A stretch of DNA of 39,153 nt from a virus: positions 1 through 39,153 of the IMG/VR virus record IMGVR_UViG_3300036772_000156. One strand, 5' to 3'. Under the pieces are notes generated by a model. That model saw only the letters and a list, made by a program, of their open reading frames with translations. It was not told the DNA's origin and ran no database searches. The position numbers and the translations under genes are program-made. Positions 4,206 through 36,872 of the stretch are shown here, piece after piece (position 1 is the stretch's first letter; every line of letters starts with the position of its first letter).

Positions 4206-5731
4206 TGCCGCGCGCCTCGATCTTCCCACCGCCGGGGATCCAGCGCGCCGCCACCCCACTGGCCTCGAGCGGGCGCTGGTTCGACCAGAACCTGATGCGC
4301 TGGCGCGGCGGCACCCTGCAGCCGATCGGCGGCTGGGCCTCCCTGCCGCTGGCGACGTTCGATTCCAATCCGCGCGACGTGCTGACCTATCACGACAACA
4401 GTCAGAACCGCTGGGCGATCGTCGGCACCGACACTGCGCTCTATGCGTATGATTTCGGGCTCGAGGTGCTGCACGTCATCACGCCCACCGGCGTCGGGCC
4501 GCTGGAACCACCCGGCCCCGCACTCGGCTACGGCACCGGCAATTACGGCGCCGACGCCTACGGCACCGCGCGCGAGCCGGCCGATGTCGGGCCGCAGGAT
4601 GTCGCGGTCGAATTCGGCGATCAGTGGGCGATGGACCTGTTCGGCGAGCTGGTGATGATCGTGCCGACCCAGGACGGCCATCTGTTCGTGTGGGATCCCA
4701 CCACGCCCGATACCCCGGCGGTGCTGGTGCCCGAGGCGCCGATCCAGAATTTCGGGGTGCTGGTGACCGATGAGCGGTTCGTGGTGCTGCTCGGCGCCGG
4801 CGGCAATCCGCGGCAGATCGCCTGGTGCGACCAGGAGAATTTTCATAGCTGGACGCCAACGATTTCCAATCAGGCCGGCACCCTGCCGGTCGAGACCGAA
4901 GGCCGCCCGCTCGGCGGCATCCGCTGCCCCGGCGGCAATCTGCTGTTCACCGACAACGATGCGCATTTGTTACATTTCGTCGGGCCGCCGTACGTTTACG
5001 GATTGAACAAAGTGGGCGCCAATTGCGGGCTCTTATCGCGGCGCGCCTACAACTCTGCCGCCGGCCTGGTGTTCTGGATCGGCAAGAAAACTTTCTGGCA
5101 ATACGGCGGCGCGGTCACGCCGGTGATTTCCGAAGTTGCGGACTGGCTGTTCTCGATCCTCAATCTCGACTGGGCCGGCCGGCTGTTCGCGTCGTCCAAT
5201 CCGGCGTTCACCGAAGTGTGGTGGCATTTCCCCGACGAAGGCGGCACCGAATGCAACCGCTATGTCGGGATGACCTACGGCCCGCAGAGCATGACGTGGA
5301 TCATCGGGCTGCTCGACCGCAGCGCCGGCGATATCAAGGGCGCGATGGACCGCCCGGTGCTGGGTGGCAATGCCAAACTCTACCTGCATGAATACGGCTG
5401 GCTCGACGACGGCGCCTCGCGGGTCGGCACGGTGTACATCGAAAGCGCCGATATCGAGCTGGCGCCGAACGGGGAAAACCGGTTTCACGTCACCCAGGTG
5501 ATGCACGATTACGTCGGCGATCTCGGCGCGATGGGATTCCGGTTCTTCATCCAGGAGGAAACCGACGGGGCGGAATGGGACACCGGCAGCTATCCGGTGA
5601 TCAACGGCAACGGGCTCACCGACGTGCGGTTTTCCGCGCGCACCATGCGGATGCGCGTCGAGGGGCTGACCGATACGACGTTCGCGCTCGGCCGCACCCG
5701 GCTGCGCTCGCGGCTCGGCGGGACGCGCTGA
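4205..5731 (+). CDS. Tail nozzle-like structural protein
   Basis: This 508-aa protein is rich in short beta-strand repeats with Trp, Gly and Asp turns, suggesting a beta-propeller. Its N-terminus (PPPGIQRAATPLASSGRWFDQNLMRWRGG) is typical of podovirus tail nozzle or gp10-like DNA-stabilisation proteins that close the tail tube. It overlaps the collar gene by one base and the next start by one base. Domain assignment is from overall pattern and position, not from a decisive motif. Confidence 0.6.
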   Translation: MPRASIFPPPGIQRAATPLASSGRWFDQNLMRWRGGTLQPIGGWASLPLATFDSNPRDVLTYHDNSQNRWAIVGTDTALYAYDFGLEVLHVITPTGVGPLEPPGPALGYGTGNYGADAYGTAREPADVGPQDVAVEFGDQWAMDLFGELVMIVPTQDGHLFVWDPTTPDTPAVLVPEAPIQNFGVLVTDERFVVLLGAGGNPRQIAWCDQENFHSWTPTISNQAGTLPVETEGRPLGGIRCPGGNLLFTDNDAHLLHFVGPPYVYGLNKVGANCGLLSRRAYNSAAGLVFWIGKKTFWQYGGAVTPVISEVADWLFSILNLDWAGRLFASSNPAFTEVWWHFPDEGGTECNRYVGMTYGPQSMTWIIGLLDRSAGDIKGAMDRPVLGGNAKLYLHEYGWLDDGASRVGTVYIESADIELAPNGENRFHVTQVMHDYVGDLGAMGFRFFIQEETDGAEWDTGSYPVINGNGLTDVRFSARTMRMRVEGLTDTTFALGRTRLRSRLGGTR

Positions 5732-6341: not shown

Positions 6342-7282
6342 GCTACGGCTGGCGGCCGCCCTATGCCCGTGATTTCCAGCTCGCGCGCGGCGGCGGCAGC
6401 GGCGGCGGCACCCAGCAATCCTACAATGTCACGCAGTTGCCGCCGTGGCTGGATACCGCGGCGCAGAGCGTGGTCGGCCAGGCCACCGCCGCCTCGCAGC
6501 GCCCCTATCAGGCTAATCCCTACGCCACGGTGGCGCCGCAGACCGCCGACCAGACGCAGGCCTACCAGGAAATCCAGAACCTCCAAGGCAGCACCGCGCC
6601 GGCGTTCGGCGCCGCCGAAGGGGTGACGCAGGGGCTGCTCGGCCAGGCCACGCCGATCACCGCCGATCAGGTCAACGCCAATACCCAGGCGCTGATGAAT
6701 CCCTACACCACCGCGGTGGTAGCCCCCGCGGTCACCCAGATGCGCCAGGGGCTGGCCGCCACCGAGGCGGCCAACAATGCCACCGCGGTCGGCCAGGGTG
6801 CGTTCGGCGGCTCGCGACTCGGCATCCAGCAGGGCACCGCGCAGGCGCAGGAAGCGCTCGGCGAGGGCCAGCTCACCGGCGGCCTGCTCAGCTCGGGCTA
6901 CAACACGGCGGCGAGCGAAGCGATGAATATGGCCGGCACCAATCTCGGGCTCGGCCAGTGGGCCACCACTACCCTGCCGCAGCTCGCCGCCGCCGGCGCC
7001 GGGCAGACCGCCAGCCAAGCCGGGCTGCTGCAGGCCGCCGGGCAGGCGCAGCAGGGGCAGACCCAGGCCGAGGCCGACCAGGCGGCGCAGAACTGGCAGA
7101 CCCAATGGGATTACCCGTACCAGGCGCTCGATGTGCTCGAGCAGGGGATTTCCGGGATCCCGTACGGCACCACCACGTTCGGCACCGGCACCGGCAGCGG
7201 CGCACCGTCGAATACCGCGGGCACCGTGATCGGCGCCGCCGGCGCGATCGGCTCGCTCGCCGCCGCCGGGGTGGCGATATGA
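6338..7282 (+). CDS. Putative internal virion protein, Gln/Ala-rich
   Basis: This 314-aa protein is low in charge and rich in Ala, Gly, Gln and Thr. It has a LPPWLDTAAQSVV start region, a NPYTTAVVAPAVTQMRQ segment, and an AFGGSRLGIQQG stretch common to putative ejection proteins. The last 30 residues are Gly/Ala/Val-rich and could insert in a membrane. It is the first of several such proteins (6338-13928), interrupted by two enzyme genes. A role in DNA ejection is inferred from position and composition. Confidence 0.55.
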   Translation: MSYGWRPPYARDFQLARGGGSGGGTQQSYNVTQLPPWLDTAAQSVVGQATAASQRPYQANPYATVAPQTADQTQAYQEIQNLQGSTAPAFGAAEGVTQGLLGQATPITADQVNANTQALMNPYTTAVVAPAVTQMRQGLAATEAANNATAVGQGAFGGSRLGIQQGTAQAQEALGEGQLTGGLLSSGYNTAASEAMNMAGTNLGLGQWATTTLPQLAAAGAGQTASQAGLLQAAGQAQQGQTQAEADQAAQNWQTQWDYPYQALDVLEQGISGIPYGTTTFGTGTGSGAPSNTAGTVIGAAGAIGSLAAAGVAI

Positions 7283-7947
7283 TCGACCAGGCGCTGCTGG
7301 ATCGCAGCTCGCAGCACGCGCTCGATCGCGGCGTGCGGTTGCTGCAGGGGTTTCGCCTCGACGCGACCGACGAATCGCACATCGCGCGACTGCTCGAGTT
7401 CATGCGGCCGGCGCGCGGGCAGCACTGGCTCGATATCGGCAGTGGCTTCGGCGAGGCGGCGCGGCTGATGCAGGCGGCGCGGCCCGATCTCCGCTTTACC
7501 CTGATCAACAATTCTCGGTACCAACTGTGCCATACGCCGGCGCAGTTGGACGCCCGTTTTGGCGACATGCACGCGCTGCCGTTTGACGACGAAGAATTTG
7601 ATGGCGCGATGTTTCTTTACTCATTGTGTCACGCTGACGATTTTCAGTGTGTGCTGTCCGAGGCGGCGCGGGTGGTGCGGCCCGGCGGCGCGTTGTTCGT
7701 GTTCGATTACCTGCGACGACATGGCCATGCCGGCGACGACGCGCTGACGATTCGCTTTCTGCAGTCGCGGTTCATGGACTTCTTCACGATGCAGCCGACG
7801 CTCGAGGCGAGCGGATGGAGCTTGCAAAAGTTCGGTCAGCCGGTCGGCAGCGATGCGCTGTTCCGCGACCTGGTGGACGGCGATCCGATGTACGACACGA
7901 TCTTTGCCGAGCTGGTGCCGGTGCTGTGGCGCGCGGTGCGGCCATGA
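7279..7947 (+). CDS. SAM-dependent class I methyltransferase
   Basis: This 222-aa protein has methyltransferase motif I LDIGSGFGE at residues 51-59. The following region includes GDMHALPFDDEEFDGAMF (about 95-112) and the post-motif loop EAARVVRPGGALFVFDY, all typical of small-molecule or RNA-type class I enzymes. There is no DNA target-recognition domain. The ATG overlaps the previous stop, and the stop overlaps the next gene's ATG. Sitting within virion genes, it may modify a virion component, tRNA or a metabolite; the substrate cannot be read from the sequence. Confidence 0.85.
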   Translation: MIDQALLDRSSQHALDRGVRLLQGFRLDATDESHIARLLEFMRPARGQHWLDIGSGFGEAARLMQAARPDLRFTLINNSRYQLCHTPAQLDARFGDMHALPFDDEEFDGAMFLYSLCHADDFQCVLSEAARVVRPGGALFVFDYLRRHGHAGDDALTIRFLQSRFMDFFTMQPTLEASGWSLQKFGQPVGSDALFRDLVDGDPMYDTIFAELVPVLWRAVRP

Positions 7948-8678
7948 GAGATCTGTTTGAGCCGCTGTCGCGACACAGCAAGATCGCGCTCTGCTTTAGC
8001 GGCGGGAAAGATTCGCTTGCCTGCGTGCATCTGCTGAAAGACTATTTGGATAAAGTAATAATCTATCACCTGGATACCGGCGATCTGCTGCCCGAGATGA
8101 TGGCAAGCGTGGCCCGGGTCGAGGCGTTCGCGCCGCACTTCGTGCGCATCAACACCGACGTGTCGGCGTTTATCGAGCGGTTTGGCCTGCCCACCGATCT
8201 ATTGCCGCACAGCTCGCATCCGATCGGGCGCAGGATGGGTGAATACACCACGCGGCTGATCGGACGGTATGATTGCTGCTGGATCAATCTGATGCAGCCG
8301 ATCTATCGGCGGGTGCTCGAGGACGGCAACACGCTGCTGATCCGCGGCACCAAGGCGGTCGATATGCACCGGCTGCCGCTCAAGTCCGGCGATGTGTCCG
8401 ACGGCGTCGAGCTCTGGTATCCGCTGCAGGACTGGACCAACGCCGCGGTGATGGCGTTCCTCGATGGCCGGCAGATCCCGGTGCCGCGGCTCTACCAGTA
8501 CATGGTCAACGCGCCGGAGTGCGCACGCTGCTCGGCATGGTGGGGTGAAGGCCGCGCCGCCTACCTGGAAAAATTCTATCCGCAGATCGCGGCCGACTAC
8601 CAGGCGCGGCTGCAGCGCGTGATCGATGAGATCGCGAAACCGCTGGCGAATCTGCGGCATGAGGCGGGGGTGATCTGA
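7944..8678 (+). CDS. PAPS reductase-like ATP pyrophosphatase
   Basis: This 244-aa protein carries the PP-loop SGGKDS at residues 19-24, which binds ATP in the adenine-nucleotide alpha-hydrolase/PAPS reductase superfamily. A YHLDTGDLLPEM segment, an IRGTKAVD segment (133-140) and a WYPLQDWT segment (159-166) fit the same family. Cysteines at 193 and 196 (CxxC) and a Cys pair at 111-112 could hold sulfur or a metal. The gene overlaps the methyltransferase and the following virion gene. Its role is unknown: sulfate reduction, or thiolation of nucleic acid as in DndC relatives, are both possible. Confidence 0.85.
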   Translation: MRDLFEPLSRHSKIALCFSGGKDSLACVHLLKDYLDKVIIYHLDTGDLLPEMMASVARVEAFAPHFVRINTDVSAFIERFGLPTDLLPHSSHPIGRRMGEYTTRLIGRYDCCWINLMQPIYRRVLEDGNTLLIRGTKAVDMHRLPLKSGDVSDGVELWYPLQDWTNAAVMAFLDGRQIPVPRLYQYMVNAPECARCSAWWGEGRAAYLEKFYPQIAADYQARLQRVIDEIAKPLANLRHEAGVI

Positions 8679-18898: not shown

Positions 18899-19204
18899 TT
18901 GGATGAGTTAACTAACGCGACCACCGTCGGCCAGCGGGCATACTTCCAGGAGCGGCTCAAAGGCCGCGTCTACTCGTTTGTCGTCGACGAGCTGCTGAGG
19001 CGGCGGGCGGCAGACCCGAGCCTCACGCAAGCGGAAATTGCCAGGCGCCTGGGCAAGCGTCCGGAGCAGATCACTAGGCTTCTGTCGGGCCCCGGCAACT
19101 GGACGCTGGAGACCCTCAGCGATCTGTTTCTGGCCATTTGCGCCGGGGAGCCGGTGCTGAAATGCTCGCCGATCCCGGCAGAGACATTGCATAAATCGGG
19201 CTAA
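18899..19204 (+). CDS. Xre-type HTH protein
   Basis: This 101-aa protein starts at TTG 18899; the nearby ATG at 18903 opens only a two-codon frame. AGGAG lies 9 bases upstream. Residues about 38-70 form an HTH (PSLTQAEIARRLGKRPEQITRLL), followed by WTLETLSDLFLAICAG, the normal Xre/Cro-type extension. It is a good candidate for binding the AAACGNNCGTTT palindromes of this block, including the one just upstream of itself. Confidence 0.7.
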   Translation: MDELTNATTVGQRAYFQERLKGRVYSFVVDELLRRRAADPSLTQAEIARRLGKRPEQITRLLSGPGNWTLETLSDLFLAICAGEPVLKCSPIPAETLHKSG

Positions 19205-20925: not shown

Positions 20926-21194
20926 GTTGGATTTTCCCGGTACTCTGTTGACAGCAGAGAAGCGTTAAAATTCCGCAAAAGTCTAATGAAATCGAAACTT
21001 ATCCACACTTTTCACAATTACATTACGGAAATTTAATCTGCGGCAACCATATGCCTTGTGGTGTGGGTAACTTGGCGAAATCTTGCGGTTGCAATTGATT
21101 GTTCGCAGATTGTGCAATCGTTACGAGTTTCTGCCGCGGTGGTAAGAATTGGCGGTTGCGTACAAGCTGACGGTTTGCGCCGGGGGGCAAACGT
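20926..21194. promoter_or_regulatory. Divergent int/replication gap, ori or attP candidate
   Basis: This 269-bp gene-free, AT-richer segment lies between the leftward integrase and rightward replication genes. It contains TTATCCACA (20999-21007), a perfect DnaA box. It also has a TCTGTTGACAG motif at 20944-20954, a GATTG-TG-CAATC palindrome near 21110-21122, and repeated GCGGTTGC-like words (near 21085 and 21150). Position next to int makes it the main attP candidate, while the DnaA box and AT-rich stretch fit a replication origin. Neither can be proven from the sequence. Confidence 0.5.
20999..21007 (+). promoter_or_regulatory. DnaA box match
   Basis: TTATCCACA is a full match to the TTATNCACA DnaA-binding consensus. 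It lies within an AT-rich run beside replication genes. A one-mismatch copy (TTATCCACG) is at 16978-16986. Confidence 0.55.
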
Positions 21195-21407
21195 ATGGGA
21201 AGCCAACATCCCGCCTCGGCCGTGCCGTCTAAGCCATTGTTATCGAAAGCTGCCGCGGCTCGGTGCCTGAATACGTCACTGCATTTCGTCGAGGCCTTCG
21301 CCAGCCAGGGCGATCTCGAGACAAAACAGGTGCGGACCCGCACCTATTACACCCGACCCTCGGTCAAGCGGCTGCGCGAGCGGCTGTTCGGGCCGGACGG
21401 CGACTGA
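21195..21407 (+). CDS. Small DNA-binding-like protein
   Basis: This 70-aa protein has the layout of a small winged-helix or excisionase-like DNA-binding protein: KAAAARCLNTSLHFVEAFASQG followed by a beta-hairpin (TKQVRTRTYYT) and a basic helix (PSVKRLRERLFG). Its stop shares a base with the primase ATG (TGATG). Position beside int and ahead of replication genes suggests excision control or origin binding. The family is not certain. Confidence 0.6.
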   Translation: MGSQHPASAVPSKPLLSKAAAARCLNTSLHFVEAFASQGDLETKQVRTRTYYTRPSVKRLRERLFGPDGD

Positions 21408-25226: not shown

Positions 25227-25556
25227 TCAAGGCTTGGGCTGGCCACCAAATTTCGCCAGCCACGCGGCATGATCCGCGGCACGCTTGGCCGCGCGTTCAT
25301 CCCACTCGCGGCGAAATGCTGCCCGGAAACGCTGATCGCGCACGCGGCGGATTATCGTGATCACCAAGCCGGCCGCGATCACTACGGCGCCGATTGCTGC
25401 AGTGATCCAGCCGCCCTGCCAGGCGAGGCCGATAATGACCGGCACGGCCAGCGCGGCCAGAATGAACGGCGCGAGTCGCACCAGCACGATTCCGCCGATT
25501 AGAATCGCGTAGATTGCTAGCCCGGTGCCGATAACGAAAAACGCGGTTGCGAACAT
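25227..25556 (-). CDS. Small membrane protein, three predicted TM segments
   Basis: This 109-aa protein has three hydrophobic spans, at about 5-26, 28-48 and 50-68, followed by a basic, charged C-terminal helix (RRVRDQRFRAAFRREWDERAAKRA). The charge pattern puts the tail in the cytoplasm. A GAAAGGTGA site precedes the start. It follows the HTH gene by about 36 bases. It could be a superinfection-exclusion, holin or signalling protein; no family is apparent. Confidence 0.65.
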   Translation of the reverse strand: MFATAFFVIGTGLAIYAILIGGIVLVRLAPFILAALAVPVIIGLAWQGGWITAAIGAVVIAAGLVITIIRRVRDQRFRAAFRREWDERAAKRAADHAAWLAKFGGQPKP

Positions 25557-25591: not shown

Positions 25592-25843
25592 TCAACGCTC
25601 GATTTGCTCGAGGGTAGGCGCGGGATTTTTTCGCACCCATTGGGCCAAGCCGGCCAGCCAATCGAGCATCGGCGCCGGCACGGTATAAAAGCCGTTTTCC
25701 CACCATCGTACAGTGCCTTCGGTGCAACCGAAGCGACGGGCAAGCTGATTGCGCGATAGGTCGAGCTCGGTACGGAGCTCGGCCAGGCGTTGCGCGTCGG
25801 CGCGATTGGCGCGCAGCTTCGCAGCCTTTGGTTTGTTGACCAT
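25592..25843 (-). CDS. Xre-type HTH regulator (putative operator-binding protein)
   Basis: This 83-aa protein has a central HTH at about 24-60 (LAELRTELDLSRNQLARRFG, CTEGTVRWWENG), the pattern of Xre/Cro-type repressors. A short C-terminal helix (PAPMLDWLAGLAQWV) could mediate dimer formation. The ATG at 25843 has AGGAA upstream. Its own promoter contains the TACGC-CTATA-GCGTA operator at 25866-25880, which makes autoregulation and control of the other operator sites likely. Binding is inferred, not shown. Confidence 0.75.
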   Translation of the reverse strand: MVNKPKAAKLRANRADAQRLAELRTELDLSRNQLARRFGCTEGTVRWWENGFYTVPAPMLDWLAGLAQWVRKNPAPTLEQIER

Positions 25844-25865: not shown

Positions 25866-25880
25866 TACGCCTATAGCGTA
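25866..25880 (-). promoter_or_regulatory. Operator O1/promoter of the HTH gene
   Basis: TACGC-CTATA-GCGTA is a perfect 5+5 palindrome with a 5-base centre. On the minus strand it reads TACGCTATAGGCGTA, so GCTATA can act as a -10 element inside the operator, about 25 bases before the start codon at 25843. Repressor binding would block this promoter. Confidence 0.7.
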
Positions 25881-25931
25881 GGCGCGACGCGCGCGCCAGC
25901 CTGCGAAATGCTCGCAAGCTGGCGCGGCCGC

Positions 25932-26141
25932 TCAGTCGGGCACTCCAATGTTTTCGCGATGGAGTGTAGTCGCTTCGTGGCGTCGCAACGCCGCTAAGCC
26001 TGCCTTGGTATCGGTCCACAAGATGCCGGCTCGCGTGTACAGCGGCAGGTAAGTCTTGCGCATATCGGCAAGGTCGGTTGCGCGAACGTAGTGCGTGCCA
26101 CCATAAACGGATGGCACCCGCACAACGGGATGGCGCGTCAT
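25932..26141 (-). CDS. Small hypothetical protein
   Basis: This 69-aa protein begins MTRHPVVRVPSVYGGTHYVRATDLADM, then a helical region (GILWTDTKAGLAALRRHEATTL). Its ATG overlaps the stop of the upstream gene (ATGA). The next gene downstream (25592-25843) has its own promoter. No family recognised. Confidence 0.55.
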   Translation of the reverse strand: MTRHPVVRVPSVYGGTHYVRATDLADMRKTYLPLYTRAGILWTDTKAGLAALRRHEATTLHRENIGVPD

Positions 26142-26608
26142 GGCGCGTCCCCTTCCGGCTTGGCGACGAAAGCGCGGAGCGCCTCCGGCAATCCAACGTT
26201 AAGCGGGTCACTTTTCTGGCGGTTTGCGTCATACGCCAGCTTGGCCGCTACCCATCGGTTCATCAGCTCGCGCGAAGCCTCGGGCACGCCGTCGCCGTAG
26301 CGATCACGCCAGGCCGACGCTTCGGCGCCGTCGGTGTATTCGTTCAAGCCGGACCATTGCACGTGACCGGCTTCGTCCAGAAACATGCAGCCGGCAAAGC
26401 GCTGATACGTGCTTGCCTTCGGCTTGTTCCATATGCCGCCACGCTTCGGGTTTGTCGTTTGTGACATGAATCGCACCCCGTGCTTCGGATGCACGTCAAG
26501 CCAATAGCGAATCTGACAGCGCAGCCGAAAACCATAGGGATAATCTGCGACCAGATAGGCCGTTTCCGGTGAGATGTGGCCAGACAGAATCGTGATTTCG
26601 TTAGACAT
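26138..26608 (-). CDS. Hypothetical accessory protein
   Basis: This 156-aa protein begins MSNEITILSGHISPETAYLV and continues with beta-rich sequence (YPYGFRLRCQIRYWLDVHPKHG), a TTNPKRGGIWNKPKASTYQRFAG segment and a C-terminal helix. The conserved-looking NPKRGGIWNKPK part is seen in some phage accessory proteins of unknown function. A TGGAG site precedes the ATG. It is in the leftward block transcribed from the operator-controlled promoter at 27136-27150. Confidence 0.6.
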   Translation of the reverse strand: MSNEITILSGHISPETAYLVADYPYGFRLRCQIRYWLDVHPKHGVRFMSQTTNPKRGGIWNKPKASTYQRFAGCMFLDEAGHVQWSGLNEYTDGAEASAWRDRYGDGVPEASRELMNRWVAAKLAYDANRQKSDPLNVGLPEALRAFVAKPEGDAP

Positions 26609-26633
26609 AATCTACTCCATTTCTGACAGGGGT

Positions 26634-27110
26634 TCAGGCCGCAACCGCGAGCGGCGTAGCGTCATTGGCCAGAGCGTCGGCAATTTGCCGCGCCATGATT
26701 TCGTTGCGGTTAAGAAAAGCCGGTAATTCCATCGGGTGCAGCGACACCCGGTTGCCGTAGCAATCTGTGACCACGATATCCGCGGTCACCCGCGCGGATG
26801 CCGGCTCGGCGTACTGCGGACCGGCCGGCAGCATGCCGTTGGGCCAGAATTGCGCGGCCGGCAACCGCACATCGCGCGGCGTCTTGCTCACGCGGCCGAA
26901 TACTTTGCACGCTACCCATGCCGCCGGCAGTCTGGCGTGCACGTAGGCGCCAGGCTGGATTGACCAGCGATCACCATGGATGTTGCACGCGGCCAGCTTG
27001 GCCGCGCGATGGGCTGGCATCCACTCTGTCCAGCTCTTGAACGTTGGCGCCTTGGGCGCCGATTTCCGCGCCCGTATCGGCTGGCCGCAGCATTCGCAAA
27101 TGGTTGTCAT
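26634..27110 (-). CDS. Hypothetical accessory protein with Cys cluster
   Basis: This 158-aa protein starts at ATG 27110, with AAGGAA upstream; a longer frame from 27131 is possible but the ribosome site favours 27110. It starts MTTICECCGQPIR (Cys at 5, 7 and 8), a possible metal site. The rest alternates strands and loops (WVACKVFGRVSKTPRDVRLP, PQYAEPASARVTADIVV) and ends in a helix. First gene after the operator cluster at 27136-27207. Function unknown. Confidence 0.6.
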   Translation of the reverse strand: MTTICECCGQPIRARKSAPKAPTFKSWTEWMPAHRAAKLAACNIHGDRWSIQPGAYVHARLPAAWVACKVFGRVSKTPRDVRLPAAQFWPNGMLPAGPQYAEPASARVTADIVVTDCYGNRVSLHPMELPAFLNRNEIMARQIADALANDATPLAVAA

Positions 27111-27135
27111 GTCGTGGTTTCCTTGTTTCAACGCC

Positions 27136-27207
27136 TACGTATATAGCGTAAGTGTGGAATAAAGCGCCTACGCAAATAACGTATGTCTAGCATACGCTAT
27201 TTGCGTA
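27136..27207 (-). promoter_or_regulatory. Operator cluster O2-O4 and leftward promoter
   Basis: Three palindromes: 27136-27150 (TACGT-ATATA-GCGTA), 27169-27183 (TACGC-AAATA-ACGTA) and 27193-27207 (TACGC-TATTT-GCGTA). Start-to-start spacing is 33 and 24 bases. On the minus strand the first reads TACGCTATATACGTA, giving a -10-like TATAT 27-40 bases before the gene at 27110. CTAGACA lies between the two upstream sites, as in the second cluster. Confidence 0.75.
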
Positions 27208-27220
27208 GCAGCGCTCGAGC

Positions 27221-27832
27221 TCACCCGTTGCGCGCGTTGCGGCCGGCAACCGTGATCGCGCCAGCCTTATTGAGTAGACCGCGTGCGATCAAACCGGACT
27301 TGGCGCCGTCCCACTGCTCACGCGACGGCACAAAGTCCAGATACGCCAAACCGCCGTAACCGTAGCGCAGTTGAGTGCGCATATCGGACTGCAGTTGCGC
27401 GCAACGATCCTGGCCGTTGTATGAGCTCTTGCGGCCGGCGGTATATTCCAACACGGCACGCTCGAGCGGTGCGAGCTCGGCCTTGCTCGGCAGCATCGGC
27501 GCGGCATCGGTGGGATGCACGTAGATACGCAAGCCCATATCCTTCCCGCAGAAATGCGAGTGTTCCACAACGGCAATGCCTGGCCGCAGGGTAACCGTGC
27601 GATCCTGCCGGCCGCGGTCCCATGGCGCGGTATCCTGGCCAGGAAACGGCACGTCAAAACCGTCGGCCATGCGGCGCGCCACAAATACATCGCGTGAGCC
27701 GCCATCCCATAACCCTGCGTTAGATGGGATGTGAACGGTTTCCGCCACGATGACGCGGAACATATTGCCACGGTAACCACCGATCAGACTCTGAGGCACC
27801 TGATCGCGGGTGAGGTGAATTGCGGTTTGCAC
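27221..27832 (-). CDS. Hypothetical accessory protein
   Basis: This 203-aa protein starts at GTG 27832, with AGGAA 9 bases upstream. It is a mix of strands and helices with no known motif. Recognisable segments are GNMFRVIVAETVHIPS, an FCGKDMGLRIYVHP segment and a terminal region KSGLIARGLLNKAGAITVAG. It is transcribed leftward from an operator-controlled promoter at 27879-27893. It is the first gene of the leftward arm. Confidence 0.6.
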   Translation of the reverse strand: MQTAIHLTRDQVPQSLIGGYRGNMFRVIVAETVHIPSNAGLWDGGSRDVFVARRMADGFDVPFPGQDTAPWDRGRQDRTVTLRPGIAVVEHSHFCGKDMGLRIYVHPTDAAPMLPSKAELAPLERAVLEYTAGRKSSYNGQDRCAQLQSDMRTQLRYGYGGLAYLDFVPSREQWDGAKSGLIARGLLNKAGAITVAGRNARNG

Positions 27833-27878
27833 TTGGTGATTTCCTACTCGGTTTGTGCAGCGCCATCGCTGCTACGCC

Positions 27879-27981
27879 TACGCATATAGCGTAAGCGCCC
27901 GAGTATTACCTACGCGAAAAGCGTAACCTAGACATACGGAAATCGCGTATCTATCGGCCGGTCGGTTACGCTATATACGTA
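27879..27981. promoter_or_regulatory. Divergent operator cluster O5-O8 with two promoters
   Basis: Four palindromes: 27879-27893 (TACGC-ATATA-GCGTA), 27911-27925 (TACGC-GAAAA-GCGTA), 27935-27949 (TACGG-AAATC-GCGTA) and 27967-27981 (TACGC-TATAT-ACGTA). Spacing is 32, 24, 32 bases, symmetrical about the middle. The outer two carry TATA-like -10 elements, one facing left toward 27832 and one facing right toward 28012. The inner two lie between the divergent promoters. Confidence 0.75.
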
Positions 27982-28011: not shown

Positions 28012-28152
28012 ATGATCGATCGTTCCGCAGTATCGCAGGCCTTGGCAAAGGCAATTGCCTACAAGAATTGCGGCAAGTCCCGCGAAGCCGAAGCGTGGGC
28101 GCGGCGCCTGGTCGAGCTGCTCGAGCTCGCGAATATCCTGGCAGCGGAGTGA
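28012..28152 (+). CDS. Very small helical protein
   Basis: This 46-aa protein has a GGAG site 8 bases upstream and is the first gene of the rightward arm. It is almost entirely helical (SQALAKAIAYKNCGKS, then EAEAWARRLVELLELANIL). It could be a small regulator or peptide signal; no family is recognised. It is too short for reliable function calls. Confidence 0.5.
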   Translation: MIDRSAVSQALAKAIAYKNCGKSREAEAWARRLVELLELANILAAE

Positions 28153-28157
28153 AGCGA

Positions 28158-28349
28158 ATGACCATGATCGCAGATTACAACGGCCACCTCATGATCCCGG
28201 CGGGCACGCTGGTGACCGTCAAAACCACCAATGGTGGCGAAAGCATGCCGCGGCCACTCGCGCGCAACCATTATCCGACCTATGACGTGGTGTTTGATCA
28301 CTTCACCATCCCTGGATACCGCGTCGTATCTGTGACGGTTGCGGAGTGA
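28158..28349 (+). CDS. Small hypothetical protein
   Basis: This 63-aa protein has a beta-rich sequence (HLMIPAGTLVTVKTTNG, TYDVVFDHFTIPGYRVVSVTV) reminiscent of a small SH3- or OB-like barrel. It lies 5 bases after the previous stop. No function known. Confidence 0.55.
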   Translation: MTMIADYNGHLMIPAGTLVTVKTTNGGESMPRPLARNHYPTYDVVFDHFTIPGYRVVSVTVAE

Positions 28350-28354
28350 CCGCC

Positions 28355-28702
28355 ATGCAGCCGAATCAGACCACCGAAGCGTACGCGATGCGCGACGCGA
28401 TGGCGCCAGTGCCCGCTGGCAAGGTGCGACTGTGCGAGTATGCCGATTGCGACGCGCGGTTGCTCGGTGTCGTGACCATGCTGGCACGTGGTGAGGCGGT
28501 TAATTGCCACGGCATCCGCAAGCCGATGCAGCTTGATCACGTCACCCGCGGCTATCAGATCGCGGGATCATGCTTGCGTTGGCAGGATCGTGAGGTATGG
28601 CGCGTGCGGGTTTGGCAGAACGATGGCACCACGCACGGCCAGGCGTTCAAGACTGAGCTCGAGGCGCGCGCCTTGTTCGATCGGTGGGCGGGAGTCGCGT
28701 GA
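28355..28702 (+). CDS. Hypothetical protein
   Basis: This 115-aa protein starts at ATG 28355, with GGAG 9 bases upstream; GTG 28346 is also in frame but too close. It has a C-x4-C pair (CEYADC) near residue 27-32 and then beta-strand sequence (VTRGYQIAGSC, REVWRVRVWQ). Its stop overlaps the next ATG. Function unknown. Confidence 0.55.
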   Translation: MQPNQTTEAYAMRDAMAPVPAGKVRLCEYADCDARLLGVVTMLARGEAVNCHGIRKPMQLDHVTRGYQIAGSCLRWQDREVWRVRVWQNDGTTHGQAFKTELEARALFDRWAGVA

Positions 28703-28944
28703 TGTATTACACAATCTCCCGCGCCGATGGCGCAGTCGTGTCGCCAAAGCGCTTTCGTTCCGTCCGTAGGGCATTGTGGCACGCTCGAGGATTCGCGCGC
28801 GCCGATGGCGGCACGTTCACTGTGAGCGAATTCCCGGGCGCCCGGCAGACCGGCCGGCCGGTGATGTGCATCCGCTTTGATCTGGAAACCGACTGGCGCG
28901 GCACGCCACTGGATTTCTGGAAAGACGGCACGCCGATTCTCTGA
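28702..28944 (+). CDS. Small hypothetical protein
   Basis: This 80-aa protein starts at ATG 28702, overlapping the previous stop; GGGAG is upstream. Short strands and a basic helix (RRALWHARGFARADGGTFTVSEF) are visible. Last gene of the rightward arm before the 545-bp gene-free region. No family recognised. Confidence 0.55.
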   Translation: MYYTISRADGAVVSPKRFRSVRRALWHARGFARADGGTFTVSEFPGARQTGRPVMCIRFDLETDWRGTPLDFWKDGTPIL

Positions 28945-28978
28945 TCGCTGGCGCGGGTGACCGTTCGGCGCTACTCTT

Positions 28979-29022
28979 GCCGCCTCACCCCGCGCCCATG
29001 GATCGCGATGGGGTGAGGCGGC
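28979..29022. repeat. 13-bp perfect inverted repeat
   Basis: GCCGCCTCACCCC (28979-28991) and GGGGTGAGGCGGC (29010-29022) flank an 18-base loop. The GCCGCCTCACC core recurs at 29287-29297 (inverted) and 29424-29434. The 3' side lacks a T-run, so a simple terminator is not favoured. Confidence 0.7.
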
Positions 29023-29067
29023 TACTCGTTGCAGGGAGCGGTGTAACGCAACTGCAATGGTCCGTTA

Positions 29068-29099
29068 GGCGCTTGAAATGCCGTCACTATTCAAGCGCC
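29068..29099. repeat. 10-bp perfect inverted repeat
   Basis: GGCGCTTGAA (29068-29077) and TTCAAGCGCC (29090-29099) flank a 12-base loop. It is the second hairpin in the series. Confidence 0.65.
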
Positions 29100-29103
29100 C
29101 GTT

Positions 29104-29132
29104 GCTGTTACGGTTGCATCTTGTGTAACAGC
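29104..29132. repeat. 8-bp perfect inverted repeat
   Basis: GCTGTTAC (29104-29111) and GTAACAGC (29125-29132) flank a 13-base loop. GTGTAAC also occurs directly at 29041 and 29123. Confidence 0.55.
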
Positions 29133-29162
29133 CCAGATATCCCTACACGTGAATCGCCCGAC

Positions 29163-29275
29163 TCGCGCGCTAGTATATTTGTTTGTAACCGACAAACCTG
29201 TAAATATTCAGAATAAGATATATCATTTAGATATAGATATAGATAATAATATCAATAGCTTAACGTTCGTTGCAA
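29163..29275. other. AT-rich segment, possible unwinding element
   Basis: This stretch is far richer in A and T than any other part of the genome. It contains a GTTTGT/ACAAAC hairpin (29181-29186/29192-29197) and three tandem TAGATA units at 29228-29245. It resembles a DNA unwinding element of an origin but no DnaA box is present in it. Confidence 0.5.
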
Positions 29276-29286
29276 AAAGCACGCAT

Positions 29287-29434
29287 GGTGAGGCGGCATA
29301 GTTCTTCCCGCGTGGGTTGTAACTGGCGATATCAACGGGTTAGCTCGCTCGAGCACATTAAAAACTGGTAATATTTGGCTCTAACCCACCCCGAAATTGT
29401 GCGGCTGTAGCGGCGCAGATTTGGCCGCCTCACC
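29287..29434. repeat. Outer pair of GGTGAGGCGGC inverted repeats
   Basis: GGTGAGGCGGC (29287-29297) and GCCGCCTCACC (29424-29434) are inverted copies of the 28979/29012 motif and enclose a 126-base segment. That segment contains GGGTTAG (29337-29343) and CTAACCC (29381-29387). This makes four copies of the 11-mer in the gene-free region. Confidence 0.6.
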
Positions 29435-29489
29435 AGCCTCATTCGCCTCACTGTTTTTGCCGCCCACGTTCGCCTAGCCTCGCAGCGCT

Positions 29490-30095
29490 ATGAGCGAAAG
29501 CACGGAAAACAGTAGCAAACCGCAACTCACGCCAAAGGGTGCCGCAGCCCAAGGCGCAGCACGCGCACCCGTTGGCCAGCAAGTGACGCTAACCTTCGCA
29601 CAAACCACCGAGCCGCAATTTGCCGTGGTTGACGCCATGCCGCGGCGCCGACACGAACGCGGCTCGTTGCGCTCGGATGCCAGGCGCACCGCGGAATATC
29701 TGGCATCGCGCGGGCCGACTCCGGTCGAGGCGCTGCACGATGTGGCGCGCATGCGTTGGAGAGACGCGATCAAGCAGATTTCCAAGCATGCCAAGTGCAG
29801 CGAGCTCGAGGCGATGAAGATGTGGCGCGACTGCAACCTCGCCATCCTGCCGTATGCGGCCGCGCGGTTTGACACCATCGAACTCGGTGCCGCGATGGGC
29901 GGCCAGGGTGGGCTGGCGATGTCGCATTTCCTGGCCGCCAGCATGATCGCGGACCGCGCGCTGACCGGCGCCACGCACCCGTCAACAGATAGTCAGTCTG
30001 TTGACAGCTCTGAAAGCCGCGGATTACCGTTGTTTATCGAGGCGGGGAAAGACGGTGCCCAAGCGCCGGCCTTGCCGCCGAAGCCGGAGGACTAG
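29490..30095 (+). CDS. Putative terminase small subunit
   Basis: This 201-aa protein would recognise phage DNA and start packaging. After a disordered Ser/Pro/Gln N-terminus, residues about 66-125 read TPVEALHDVARMRWRDAIKQ, an AMKMWRDCNLAIL helix and PYAAARFDTIEL. That resembles the TP-x-E...PY-x-x-x-R-x-x-x-IEL pattern of alphaproteobacterial phage TerS proteins. It precedes TerL with two genes between. A perfect 9-bp palindrome near its 3' end (29981-30005) could be a packaging signal. The assignment is moderate. Confidence 0.55.
   Translation: MSESTENSSKPQLTPKGAAAQGAARAPVGQQVTLTFAQTTEPQFAVVDAMPRRRHERGSLRSDARRTAEYLASRGPTPVEALHDVARMRWRDAIKQISKHAKCSELEAMKMWRDCNLAILPYAAARFDTIELGAAMGGQGGLAMSHFLAASMIADRALTGATHPSTDSQSVDSSESRGLPLFIEAGKDGAQAPALPPKPED
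29981..30005. repeat. GTCAACAGA/TCTGTTGAC palindrome inside TerS-candidate gene
   Basis: GTCAACAGA (29981-29989), spacer TAGTCAG, TCTGTTGAC (29997-30005). The same 9-mer occurs near the integrase start (20944-20952) and before the capsid-gene leader (38952-38960). Inside terS it could be a pac-like site or an operator. Confidence 0.55.
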
Positions 30096-30122: not shown

Positions 30123-30992
30123 GTGAGCGGTGTCGTGTCCGGTGAGTCTCAGATGTCTCAAAAAGATTGCGGGGTCGGTCGCGACGCAGCCCAGGCGGGC
30201 GCCTCGAGGCCCCCCCCGGTGGCGATGGGACCCGACCCCGTCACCGGCGCTGTGCCCCACTGCAACCGCCTGTGGCCGTTGGCCAAATTGCTGCCGGCGC
30301 TCCCTGAGGGGGGCGCACCACCGGGCGCTGGGGACAAGGGATGCTTTCGCCCGGGGTGCCAGGGGCAGGTCAAGCACGCCGGGCGCAAATACTGCTCGGT
30401 GCTGTGCGCCGCGATGATGCGGCGGCGCGAGACCGGGCGCTGCCAGGTGTGCGGCGCCCCGCTCAACACCGGTGCCAGCGCGTGCTCGCGCGCCTGCGGC
30501 TATGTGCTGCGTTCCGGCAAGCTGCTCGGTCGCGAGGTGGTACATTCCAGCCACGTCCGCGACGGCATGCGCGAGCGCTGGGAGGACGGCATGGCGGTCA
30601 GCGAGATCGCCCGCCAGCTCGGCATTTCCAAGAATTCGGTGGTCAGCCTGCGCCGCCGCATGCGGCTCAAGATGCGCGGCTCACCGATCATCCGCGACGC
30701 GGCAAGCGACGGCAGTCCGAAAAAAACCGCGGCGCCGAAGCGACCGGCTGGGAGCCGCCCCCGGCCGGCCGTGGCGCAACCGCCGGCGGCGCCGCTGGCG
30801 CCGATCCGGAAAAAGCCGAATCTGCGCGCCGGCCAAATGCCGGTCACGCTGCGGCCGGCGATGAAAGTCTGGGACGGGCAGCTCGATCGGGTGCGGGTGC
30901 CGGTCAAGGCCGGCGTGCCCGGCTGCTACTGCTCGGCGCACCCAGAAATCCGCTGGCATCCGCTGACCCAGCGCTGCCGGGCGGCGGCATGA
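30123..30992 (+). CDS. Zinc-finger plus HTH protein
   Basis: This 289-aa protein starts at GTG 30123; later in-frame ATGs at 30153 and 30225 are possible starts. Two Cys4 clusters lie at about 74-95 (C-x4-C-x11-C-x3-C) and 107-125 (C-x2-C-x10-C-x3-C). An HTH at about 152-182 (RWEDGMAVSEIARQLGISKNSVVSLRRR) resembles GcrA/Xre-type helices. The C-terminus is basic and Pro-rich. An eight-C run at 30210-30217 lies in the N-terminal part. The protein may control the late genes or assist packaging. Confidence 0.65.
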   Translation: MSGVVSGESQMSQKDCGVGRDAAQAGASRPPPVAMGPDPVTGAVPHCNRLWPLAKLLPALPEGGAPPGAGDKGCFRPGCQGQVKHAGRKYCSVLCAAMMRRRETGRCQVCGAPLNTGASACSRACGYVLRSGKLLGREVVHSSHVRDGMRERWEDGMAVSEIARQLGISKNSVVSLRRRMRLKMRGSPIIRDAASDGSPKKTAAPKRPAGSRPRPAVAQPPAAPLAPIRKKPNLRAGQMPVTLRPAMKVWDGQLDRVRVPVKAGVPGCYCSAHPEIRWHPLTQRCRAAA

Positions 30993-33535: not shown

Positions 33536-33732
33536 GCGATGAGCTGGCGCTGACCGGCTGGGCACTGCGCCGCACCGACGGCTCGGTGGTGGTGCGGATC
33601 GGCCGCGAGGTGGACGAAGCGACGATCTGGAAGCTCGGTCTGGGCTGGCCGACCGAGGAAGAAATCACCTGGGCCAAGGAGCACGGCGCCCGCGCCTACC
33701 GCTGCCGCGTGCTCTGTCTGGACGCGGTATGA
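33532..33732 (+). CDS. Small hypothetical protein
   Basis: This 66-aa protein is beta-rich at first (TGWALRRTDGSVVVRIG) and then helical (TEEEITWAKEHG). ATG and stop both overlap neighbouring genes, ending within the portal start. Function unknown. Confidence 0.55.
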   Translation: MSDELALTGWALRRTDGSVVVRIGREVDEATIWKLGLGWPTEEEITWAKEHGARAYRCRVLCLDAV

Positions 33733-36700
33733 GCGGCAGCATTCCCGCGCCGCCGGCACCGCTCGCCGCGCAGCTTCGCGCGCTGACCGATCCGCGGCAC
33801 CCGCGCGACGCGATGTTCCTGCCCAAAGGCGCGCCGGAACCGCGCCAACTGCATCCGCGGGTGCAGCGAATCGCCCGCCGCGAGGGCACCCTGCTCACCA
33901 CCAATCCGGTGAAGGGCGCGGCGTTTGCCGCCGCCCAGCACATCGACGACCCGCTGATGGCGCGGCTGCTCGCCACCCCGCAGCCGGCCGGTATGGCCCC
34001 CGCCGGGCAGGCCGCCAGCCAGGCGGCATTGCCGGCCGCGATTCACGCCGCGCCGCCAGACGACGATGCGGATGCGGGCGCGGCGCCGCCGCCGGCCGCG
34101 CCGCCGCTGCCCAACGGGCGGCCGGATTTTTCCGATGGCGGGATGGATCTGCCGTTCGCGCCGCCCAAGCCAGCGCATCGGCCGCCGCTGGTGATGATGT
34201 CCGCCGGCGGCCTGCAGCTCGGGCCGGACCAGGCGCTGGCCGCGGCGCTGCGTCCGGATGACGCGATGCCGCCGGCGCTGGCGCGCTATCAGGCCGGGCT
34301 GCAGCCCGCGATCGCCCCCGCCGGGGTCGATTGGCAGCAGGAAATCGTGTTCGACCGGCTGGCCCGCGATGACGCCTCGATCCAGTCGCAGATGCTGTAT
34401 TATTTTGAACGCGCACGGAGTTACGACTACCAGCTCAGCCTCGAGCGCATGCTGGCCAGCGATTATTACAACGGCCGACCGCTCGGCACCGAGGAAGAAG
34501 GTCGCTCCAAGCTGGTGATGACCACGGTCCGCGATACCGTGCGCGCCACCCTGCCGTCGCTGCTGCGGATCTTCACCGCGGTGGAAAACCCGTGCGAATT
34601 CACCCCGGAAGTGGCTGAAAATGAACAATTGGGCGTGCTGCACGCCGGGCTGGCGCGGCAGGCCACCACATACGCCAAATGGGCGCTGTTCAACGCCAAT
34701 CCCGGCTGGCAGATCCTGCATGACGTGATCCTGGACGGGCTCACCCGCAAAGTCGGCTGGGTGCGCTGGTACTGGGGCGAGCAGCGGGCGCAGCGGATCG
34801 AAGAATGCGAGCGGCTGCTGCTGCCGCAACTGCATGCCATCCTGGCCGAGCCCGGCATCACCGCGCAGCGGGTGACCCGCCGCCCGATGCTGCCGAACGA
34901 GCAGCGCGCCGTCGCCGCCACCCCGGAAGGCGCGCAATATCTCGCCCAAGGCGGCCCGGCGGAGTTTTACGGCTGCGTGATCACCCGCTCGGCGGCGCGC
35001 GGCTGGCCGATCGTCGAGGCGGTGCCGTCGGAATGCGTCTGGGTGGTGTCGGATGCCGACACGCCGGACAACGCCAAGGCGATTTTCCATATCCGCGAGC
35101 TGCCGGTGTCGGATCTGGTCTCCGCCGGGCTGCCCGAGGACAAGGTGGTGCGGGCGAGCCAGGAAAGCATCAATTTCCGGCGCCGCGCCGAGATGGTGCG
35201 GCGCGATCCCGCCTCCGGGCGCGCGCTGCCGCTCGGCGCGCCGCCCAACGATCCCTCGATGAAGCTGGTGCGCTACTGCGAGGGGTTTATCCGCATGGAC
35301 ACCGACGGCGATAACGTCGCCGAGCTGATCCACACTCACGCGGTCGGCTACAACCCGATCCTGGTGCGCTGGGACCGCACCGACGAAGTGCCCTTGGCGG
35401 CGTTTTCGCCCTATAGGGAACCGGGCCGGATCATCGGCATGTCGCAGGCCGACATGGTGATGGACCTGCAAAAGACCGAAACCCAGGTGGTCCGCGCGGT
35501 GCTGGACTCACTCGGGCAGTCGATCTTTCCGCGCACCGTCGCGGTGATCGGCCAGGCCACCATGGAGGACGTGCGGCAAACCGCCGTCGGCGCGATCATT
35601 CGGGTGACTCAGCCCGGCGCGGTGTCCGAACTATCAAAACCGTTCGTTGGCGCCCAGGCGCTGCCGGTGATGGAATACCTCGAGGCGGTGCGCGAAAGCC
35701 GCACCGGGATTACCCGTTCTTCCCAAGGGCTTACCGCCGAATCCTTGCAGAGCACCACACCGATGGCGGTCAGTGCGCAGACCAGCGCCGCGCAGGACCG
35801 GATCGATATGATCGCGCGAACTTTGGCCGAAACCGGGTTAGTGCCATTGTATCGCGGCCTGTTAAGGCTGATGGCGAAGCACCAGGACCGCCCGAATGTG
35901 CTGTCGCTGCGCGGCCAGTGGATCACCATCGATCCGCGCGCGCTGTCGATCGTGTGGGCGGTGCAGTGCAACGTCGGCGGCAAGGGCACGGTGCAGGAAC
36001 AGCTCGCCATGCTGGCCGCGATCGCGGCGAAACAGGAAGCAATTCTGGCGCCGGCGGTGGCGCAGGGCCAGCTCGACACCCCGCTGGTCGGGCTGGTGGA
36101 GTATCGCAACACCCTGGCCAGGATGTGCGAGGTGGCCGGGATTTCCGACGTGGTGAGCTATTTCAAGGAGTTGCCGCCGGGCTGGCAACCGCCGCCGCCG
36201 CCGCCGCCGCAACCCTCGACCGATCAGGTGCTGGCGCAGATCGAGCAGATGAAGGCGCAGATGGACGCCGCTGATGATACGAGACAAGCCCAAACCGACC
36301 GGTTCAAGATCGCGCTGGACGATGAGCGCTCGCGCGATGAGGCCGCGGTCACCGCCTGGGTCGCCGCCTACGCCACCGCGGCCCAGCACGGCACGCCGAT
36401 CCCGAGCATTCTCGAGTTCAAAGCTGCGTTAAAGTCCGATCTGCCGACCCAGATGCTGCTGGCGCCCGCGGTCGCGCCGGGGATGCCCGGTACCGCACCG
36501 CCGGGCGCCGGGCCGGGTGGGCCGCCAGGTCCGCAGCCGGCCGCCGGCCCGCAGGGGATACCAATTCCGATGTCGGGGGCGCCAATCCGCCCGGCACTCG
36601 GCGCACCGCTGGGGCCTCCCGGTCCTCAGCGGGGAATGCCGGCCGCCGGGCCGCCGGGTGGTATAGCAGGCAGGCTCCCACCCGTGCCCGGCGGCGGCGG

Positions 36701-36872
36701 ACCACCCGGTGGCTTCGGACCAGCACCACCGGGCGCCGCGACCGCAGATCCCGCCACGTTGCTGGCGATGCGGCGGGCGATGCTGTCGCGCGGCGCGGTG
36801 ACGCCGGGTGCGGTGCTGCAGAACCGCGCCCTGCTGCCGCCGCAGCCGCCGCCAGGCGGACCCAATGGTTGA
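33729..36872 (+). CDS. Portal protein with N-terminal extension
   Basis: This 1047-aa protein forms the dodecameric head gate. The portal core, P22-like, begins near residue 205 with FDRLARDDASIQSQ, then ERMLASDYYNGRPLGTEEEG and TVRATLPSLLRIF. A DMVMDLQKTETQVVRA segment and a coiled C-terminal region (QIEQMKAQMDAAD) follow. Residues 1-90 form an extra domain (DPRHPRDAMFLPKGAPEP, then TTNPVKGAAFAAAQHIDDPLM), with a Pro/Ala linker to about 200. The last 150 residues are Pro/Gly-rich. The length is well above normal because of these additions. Confidence 0.85.
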   Translation: MSGSIPAPPAPLAAQLRALTDPRHPRDAMFLPKGAPEPRQLHPRVQRIARREGTLLTTNPVKGAAFAAAQHIDDPLMARLLATPQPAGMAPAGQAASQAALPAAIHAAPPDDDADAGAAPPPAAPPLPNGRPDFSDGGMDLPFAPPKPAHRPPLVMMSAGGLQLGPDQALAAALRPDDAMPPALARYQAGLQPAIAPAGVDWQQEIVFDRLARDDASIQSQMLYYFERARSYDYQLSLERMLASDYYNGRPLGTEEEGRSKLVMTTVRDTVRATLPSLLRIFTAVENPCEFTPEVAENEQLGVLHAGLARQATTYAKWALFNANPGWQILHDVILDGLTRKVGWVRWYWGEQRAQRIEECERLLLPQLHAILAEPGITAQRVTRRPMLPNEQRAVAATPEGAQYLAQGGPAEFYGCVITRSAARGWPIVEAVPSECVWVVSDADTPDNAKAIFHIRELPVSDLVSAGLPEDKVVRASQESINFRRRAEMVRRDPASGRALPLGAPPNDPSMKLVRYCEGFIRMDTDGDNVAELIHTHAVGYNPILVRWDRTDEVPLAAFSPYREPGRIIGMSQADMVMDLQKTETQVVRAVLDSLGQSIFPRTVAVIGQATMEDVRQTAVGAIIRVTQPGAVSELSKPFVGAQALPVMEYLEAVRESRTGITRSSQGLTAESLQSTTPMAVSAQTSAAQDRIDMIARTLAETGLVPLYRGLLRLMAKHQDRPNVLSLRGQWITIDPRALSIVWAVQCNVGGKGTVQEQLAMLAAIAAKQEAILAPAVAQGQLDTPLVGLVEYRNTLARMCEVAGISDVVSYFKELPPGWQPPPPPPPQPSTDQVLAQIEQMKAQMDAADDTRQAQTDRFKIALDDERSRDEAAVTAWVAAYATAAQHGTPIPSILEFKAALKSDLPTQMLLAPAVAPGMPGTAPPGAGPGGPPGPQPAAGPQGIPIPMSGAPIRPALGAPLGPPGPQRGMPAAGPPGGIAGRLPPVPGGGGPPGGFGPAPPGAATADPATLLAMRRAMLSRGAVTPGAVLQNRALLPPQPPPGGPNG

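Follow-up and report, generated by a model that had tools for sequence, protein, structure and literature searches.

The bacterial Aca proteins bind repeats that lie in core promoters (PMC9410906). Aca10 and Aca2 are small, single-domain helix-turn-helix (HTH) proteins that repress their own expression through inverted repeats in the core promoter, with one or two repeats per promoter (PMC9410906, PMC9410881); the phage locus described here resembles them in these respects, with repression as a prediction. Aca10 belongs to HTH_31, as does the 83-aa protein encoded at our locus, and its published site, ATACGC-TCATTGA-GCGTAT, contains the same TACGC half-site (PMC9410881), although the half-sites are separated by N7 in the Aca10 site and by N5 here. 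Aca proteins are small HTH proteins, mostly of 60-80 aa, with an inverted repeat in their own core promoter; the 83-aa protein is of this size class, and a palindrome at 25866-25880 lies over the -10 element of its gene. Whereas Aca proteins usually govern a single acr-aca operon, sites here are found at the HTH gene's own promoter and at three more, with up to three operators each. No acr partner is recognised with Pfam, PHROGs, NCBIfam, or PADLOC, while ardC is found in two relatives (L002 and L004), and the similarity between the Aca proteins and the 83-aa protein is at the superfamily level (E 0.013-0.05).

A second precedent comes from plasmid establishment. The p576 repressor Reg acts tightly on ardC and other establishment promoters and more weakly on its own promoter, which leads to a transient burst of expression on entry (PMC8708921). 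Our locus is similar in that one predicted repressor would serve several promoters including its own, with ardC as a target in two relatives and other targets that vary; weak repression of the regulator's own promoter, known for Reg, is suggested here by its single operator. Reg is, however, a plasmid-borne ribbon-helix-helix protein that reads direct heptamers, whereas we are dealing with a phage, an HTH protein, and palindromes. In archaeal viruses, a virus-specific regulatory sequence precedes early anti-defence genes and Aca8 (PMC11065993). The likeness is that a virus-specific consensus stands ahead of both the regulator gene and a large number of small early genes that are candidates for anti-defence; the archaeal promoters, the wHTH fold, and the sequences are unlike ours. 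Mycobacteriophage stoperator repressors also act at many sites per genome, but the stoperators, as outlined in PMC9283540, are asymmetric and genome-wide, while the sites reported here are palindromic and confined to three gaps at accessory promoters.

The proposed system would work like an Aca protein or an establishment repressor, and we file it as neither because the defining associations are not established or, for Reg, because the fold differs. The logic would be that of the Aca and p576 precedents, extended here, in a temperate bacterial phage, to several promoters and with operator sequences that would be specific to each phage.

Eight palindromes at four promoters

The window that we analysed is a whole virus record of 39,153 bp. 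A search of its full length for TACGN7CGTA returned 8 sites, whereas 100 dinucleotide shuffles averaged 0.10 with at most 1, and these are exactly the eight palindromes that a first-pass annotation of the sequence had listed at 25.9-28.0 kb. As the annotation held, all eight lie between genes, though about 91% of the window is coding; extra copies inside genes, which would have counted against a network, are absent from the window. The TACGC-N5-GCGTA design that it proposed is exact in half of the sites (25866, 27193, 27879, and 27911), but the other four have a single mismatch at the inner base pair, and TACG-N7-CGTA is therefore the better consensus. When two mismatches are permitted, the motif occurs 21 times in the window with 24 expected, which is not above chance; since such a search swamps the signal with chance matches, we take the true set to be the eight. 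We found nothing relevant in the literature on a TACGC/GCGTA palindrome in phages.

Combining the motif search with a reading of the promoters, we found that four promoters each have a palindrome, O1, whose spacer contains the -10 element (TACG-CTATAT-... or TACG-CTATAG-..., read toward the gene). These are the four sites, 25866, 27136, 27879, and 27967, for which TATA-like -10 elements had been noted, and all four are promoter-proximal. Three of the promoters have an additional site, O2, 32-33 bp upstream of O1, and then O3, 24 bp beyond O2, which places O2 and O3 at about -42 and -66. The promoter of the HTH gene has O1 only (25866-25880, minus strand), covering its -10 CTATAG, consistent with the earlier assignment of one site to this promoter. 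The minus-strand promoter of the gene at 26634-27110 has O1 at 27136-27150, covering CTATAT, O2 33 bp upstream at 27169-27183, and O3 a further 24 bp upstream at 27193-27207.

The other four sites occupy a divergent gap, where O1 of the leftward gene at 27221-27832 (27879-27893, minus strand) and O1 of the rightward gene at 28012 (27967-27981, plus strand) each cover a CTATAT. The four operator centres in this gap are spaced symmetrically, 32-24-32 bp, so that the two middle sites are common to both promoters: 27911-27925 is leftward O2 and rightward O3, and 27935-27949 is rightward O2 and leftward O3. This regular spacing went unmentioned in the first-pass annotation, as did TTACGCTATATACGTAGGCGTTGAAACAA, which is repeated exactly at two promoters of the window. 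The spacers between O2 and O1 have no good -35 element, with 2-3/6 matches and none above 3/6. Three-operator arrays with a 24-bp step are familiar from lambda OR. The likeness to OR and CI lies in the array and its step; unlike in lambda, there is no two-domain repressor, cro partner, or control of integrase or replication here.

An 83-aa XRE protein is the proposed regulator

The HTH gene (25592-25843, minus strand) encodes an 83-aa protein of the XRE/HTH_31 type with the recognition helix CTEGTVRWWENG, in which the motif reads TVRWWENG. The protein matches Pfam HTH_31 with E=1.3e-9, above the family cut-off, and its AlphaFold model has a helical XRE fold with a mean pLDDT of 91. The nearest folds include Aca2 (7b5j; ranked second), the P2 C repressor (2xcj), C.AhdI, and C.BclI; no E-value in this search was below 1e-3, and on the predicted model the relation to Aca2, P2 C, and C.AhdI is a superfamily resemblance, not membership. 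The best NCBIfam match, an MqsA-type antitoxin HTH, is far below the cut-off (E=3.6e-5), and a profile search of PDB chains gave weak matches to 7xi5 (E=0.013) and Aca2 (E=0.048). Searches of the PDB with single HTH sequences found nothing below E=0.1, and single-sequence scans of viral contigs with the HTH and with DUF927 gave no matches. The protein consists of the HTH only and has no C-terminal oligomerisation or protease domain; P2 C, a single-domain repressor, does not have one either.

Related phages keep the layout and change the palindrome

Relatives were found by a terminase scan, with terminase identities of 83% for L002 and 78% for L004. HTH homologues were found in four relatives, L001, L002, L004, and L037. 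G024/L002, G025/L004, and G001/L001 each encode a homologous HTH protein of 71-85 aa near the same genes, window-type sites are absent or single in all three, and the equivalent promoters in each phage carry a distinct palindrome. In G024/L002, this is TATNC-N9-GNATA (6 sites versus 0 expected in the same scan). In G025/L004, TRTCC-N9-GGAYA at O1 and a sequence like TATCCG-N7-CGGATA at O2, 34-35 bp apart, precede every accessory gene. G001/L001 has a palindrome like TGTCG-N10-CGACA; allowing one mismatch there are 5 matches versus 1.0 expected, 4 of them in the accessory region. Among the HTH proteins, those of L002 and L004 are closest to each other (44% identity; the others 28-35%), and this pair also has the most similar operators, with TATCC...GGATA in common. 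The architecture is conserved, and the HTH protein and its palindrome have diverged together.

As in the window, the HTH gene has a single operator in both L002 and L004. In L002, that operator (4399-4419) abuts the start codon and contains a Shine-Dalgarno-like AGGA; autoregulation there could therefore be leaderless or translational. G022/L037 carries the HTH gene and a homologue of the gene at 28012, each behind an identical, repeated, strong promoter (TTGACA-N16-CTATAT); beyond this repeated promoter, we could not define a clear palindromic operator in L037. The -35 elements of L004, L001, and L037 match TTGACA at 4-6/6 positions. In G023/L038, the helicase, terminase, and portal are kept, and the helicase runs straight to the terminase region without an accessory block; no HTH homologue was found in this 24-kb fragment. 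Only four close relatives have the HTH gene beside such sites or repeated promoters. Searches of genome contigs and class-wide genome searches returned remote helicase homologues only, without the operator/HTH module.

Genes under the palindromes

Just downstream of the HTH gene, and probably co-transcribed with it, is a gene for a 109-aa protein that reads by eye as a membrane protein and has no confident family (25227-25556, minus strand). The leftward accessory operon includes the gene at 26634-27110 (minus strand; start codon picked from its Shine-Dalgarno sequence), whose product has CxxC motifs, a 156-aa gene in second position (26138-26608, minus strand), and a 69-aa gene in third (25932-26141, minus strand). 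By alignment, L002 and L004 have the 26634-27110 gene as well, under analogous promoters, and L001 has a homologue too (51-67% identity); the model of its protein, with a pLDDT of 50, is too poor for use. The 203-aa product of the gene at 27221-27832 (minus strand) has a weak C-terminal match to HTH_67, below the cut-off, and the gene has no relative in phage records.

On the plus strand, the rightward operon encodes a 46-aa protein (28012-28152) that is 69% identical over 42 residues to the HTH-adjacent gene of L037/G022, a 63-aa protein (28158-28349; start codon picked by eye), a 118-aa protein (28346-28702) that is 74% identical to the product of a gene under an operator promoter of L002, and, in last position, an 86-aa protein (28684-28944). 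The HTH neighbours in the window match nothing in Pfam, PHROGs, NCBIfam, or PADLOC, searches of phage records with the accessory proteins found no relatives, and neither ardC nor another recognisable anti-defence gene is present in the window. In L002 and L004, ArdC is encoded under operator promoters (PF08401, E=2e-30 and 1e-29; also PF18818). Given ArdC at these promoters, together with the conserved genes, we regard the block as an accessory and partly anti-restriction region. Reading the L004 sequence by eye, we noticed that each accessory gene is followed by a terminator-like stem-loop.

An independent scan of viral contigs

We also scanned 2.9 million viral contigs, from DNA alone, for paired palindromes of the TACGC-N5-GCGTA type 5-30 bp apart. 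The scan returned 76 loci, unrelated phages included. Site-to-site distances peak at 31-34 bp, the O1-O2 step of the window; 25 of 53 sequence clusters fall in this peak compared to 8 expected (P=5e-8). Small XRE proteins whose recognition helix fits the expression T[VIW]xxWExG are encoded within 3 kb at 10 of the 47 loci with 30-35 bp spacing and at 0/29 with other spacings, and none occur in 466 kb of loci chosen otherwise. Counted by cluster, the association is 6/31 versus 0/54 (P=0.002). A control palindrome, CGCAT-N5-ATGCG paired with GCAT-N7-ATGC, matches the query in composition without mirroring it exactly; of the 32 loci that it returned, one has a spacing of 31-34 bp, and 0/32 have a T[VIW]xxWExG XRE protein. 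The expression was composed after we had viewed the matches of an earlier HMM built from five phage HTHs, and we therefore treat the scan as support and not as proof. With that qualification, these results support the 83-aa protein as the binder of the sites, and the eight palindromes are probably its docking sites.

At four unrelated loci of the scan (L072, L093, L098, and L131), the TACGC...GCGTA pair precedes an operon that by eye looks like a toxin-antitoxin pair, whose putative antitoxin would be the TVxxWExG protein. This suggests that antitoxins and phage regulators use a common operator code, one derived from antitoxins.

Other features of the phage

The SU10-type portal and capsid genes (33729-36872 and 243-1220; PF23899 and PF17236) and a tyrosine integrase identify a temperate relative of the SU10 group, which is named after an E. 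coli Kuravirus; the phage carrying the operators is of a soil type. Between the terminase genes, a protein encoded at 30123-30992 (plus strand) contains a domain of the cell-cycle regulator GcrA (PF07750, E=3.5e-8), as is seen in alphaproteobacteria. Among the structural genes, a methyltransferase-like gene is followed by a PAPS-reductase-like gene (7282-8678, by eye), a possible DNA-modification module.

The AT-rich gap before the small terminase gene (28945-29490) contains inverted, phage-specific repeats, GGTGAGGCGGC. Its counterparts lie at 8560-8945 in L004, 4024-4530 in L001, 6580-6990 in L037, and 7500-8175 in L002; in L004, L001, and L037, tandem repeats 43-49 bp apart have arms of 28-29 nt. 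The gap resembles a replication origin whose iterons are private to each phage; it would be a further re-coded protein-DNA pair, the second in these phages.

Discussion

We consider it probable that the 83-aa XRE protein is a repressor with the eight palindromes as its operators and that together they produce a transient early pulse of accessory-gene expression, in a multi-promoter circuit like those of Aca proteins and plasmid establishment. In such a circuit, HTH dimers on O1, over the -10, and on O2 and O3 would block RNA polymerase at the three accessory promoters, and a dimer on the lone O1 would do the same at the promoter of the HTH gene itself. A naive cell would contain no repressor when the phage DNA arrives, and all four promoters would therefore fire. 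As the HTH protein builds up, the accessory genes would be turned off, the singly-operated HTH promoter last, so that a brief early pulse is followed by silence of the accessory genes in the lysogen. The genes regulated in this way most likely serve early host takeover or counter-defence; those of the window itself would be assigned to anti-defence by association only. That the HTH protein controls both its own gene and the accessory genes is likely, judging from the palindrome in its own promoter, the restriction of the sites to accessory genes, the way that HTH and operator have diverged together in three relatives, and the independent reappearance of the half-site near XRE proteins whose recognition helices are similar. 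To this extent, the self-contained, autoregulated network of the first-pass annotation is supported.

The annotation also proposed, as probable, lysis-lysogeny control. In that case the HTH protein would be the main repressor of the phage, with a single domain like P2 C, and the sites would maintain lysogeny. A single-domain lysogeny repressor is possible in principle, as P2 C illustrates, and this explanation therefore keeps some weight; an integrase gene is present (PF00589, E=1.4e-18), the P2 C structure is among the folds nearest to the 83-aa protein, and operators that differ between relatives resemble heteroimmunity. There are no sites, however, in the divergent region between integrase and primase (20926-21195) or at the replication, packaging, structural, or late genes of the window, and in the scanned relatives the sites are likewise confined to the accessory block. 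The protein has no CI-like second domain, and G023/L038 keeps its helicase, terminase, and portal without the block and with no HTH homologue in its 24-kb fragment. A second XRE-like gene (18899-19204, plus strand; HTH_3, E=8e-5) lies in the wider neighbourhood of the integrase, nearer to it than the HTH gene does, and is a candidate for the true lysogeny regulator. We consider an immunity switch unlikely, and this part of the annotation is not supported.

The sites might instead serve a dual role, in which the HTH protein activates from O2 and O3 and represses from O1, generating a pulse in the manner of CI at lambda PRM or the C proteins of restriction-modification systems. O2 is at the position of a class II activator, with O3 24 bp further up, and C.AhdI and C.BclI are among the similar folds. 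Because the -35 elements of the window promoters are poor compared to those of L004, L001, and L037, activation is a possibility here; but the good -35 elements of these three relatives, which have the same or an analogous layout, indicate an ancestral design that did not need activation, and the HTH gene carries only O1. We find a dual role unlikely. The sequence of the sites is in itself compatible with a binder that is not encoded by the phage, yet a host regulator is very improbable given that the operators vary among related phages, co-varying with the local HTH while the architecture is kept, and that in unrelated phages, too, the half-site lies near similar HTHs. Repeated palindromes clustered in non-coding DNA could also be the iterons of a replication origin or another DNA-structural array; every cluster, however, includes a -10 and directly adjoins a start codon, and the repeat-rich, origin-like gap at 28945-29490 is separate and has counterparts in all relatives, making this reading barely credible.

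Returning to the repressor circuit, the window and its relatives would, if it is right, provide a small natural set of recognition helices and operators, TVRWWENG with TACGC and RTVRQMA/KSIRQME with TATCC, that is useful for studying XRE specificity. More tentatively, we raise the possibility of a temperate SU10-like family with a modular early regulon that is re-coded in each lineage, such that each phage silences only its own counter-defence genes; the HTH protein may both activate, from O2 and O3, and repress, from O1, to give a timed pulse, and the uncharacterised genes would be new anti-defence proteins. If the repressor circuit itself is right, shared operators could be used to locate counter-defence genes in bacterial phages, much as has been done with regulatory sequences in archaeal viruses, and any gene under a phage-specific palindrome would be a candidate, regardless of its sequence.
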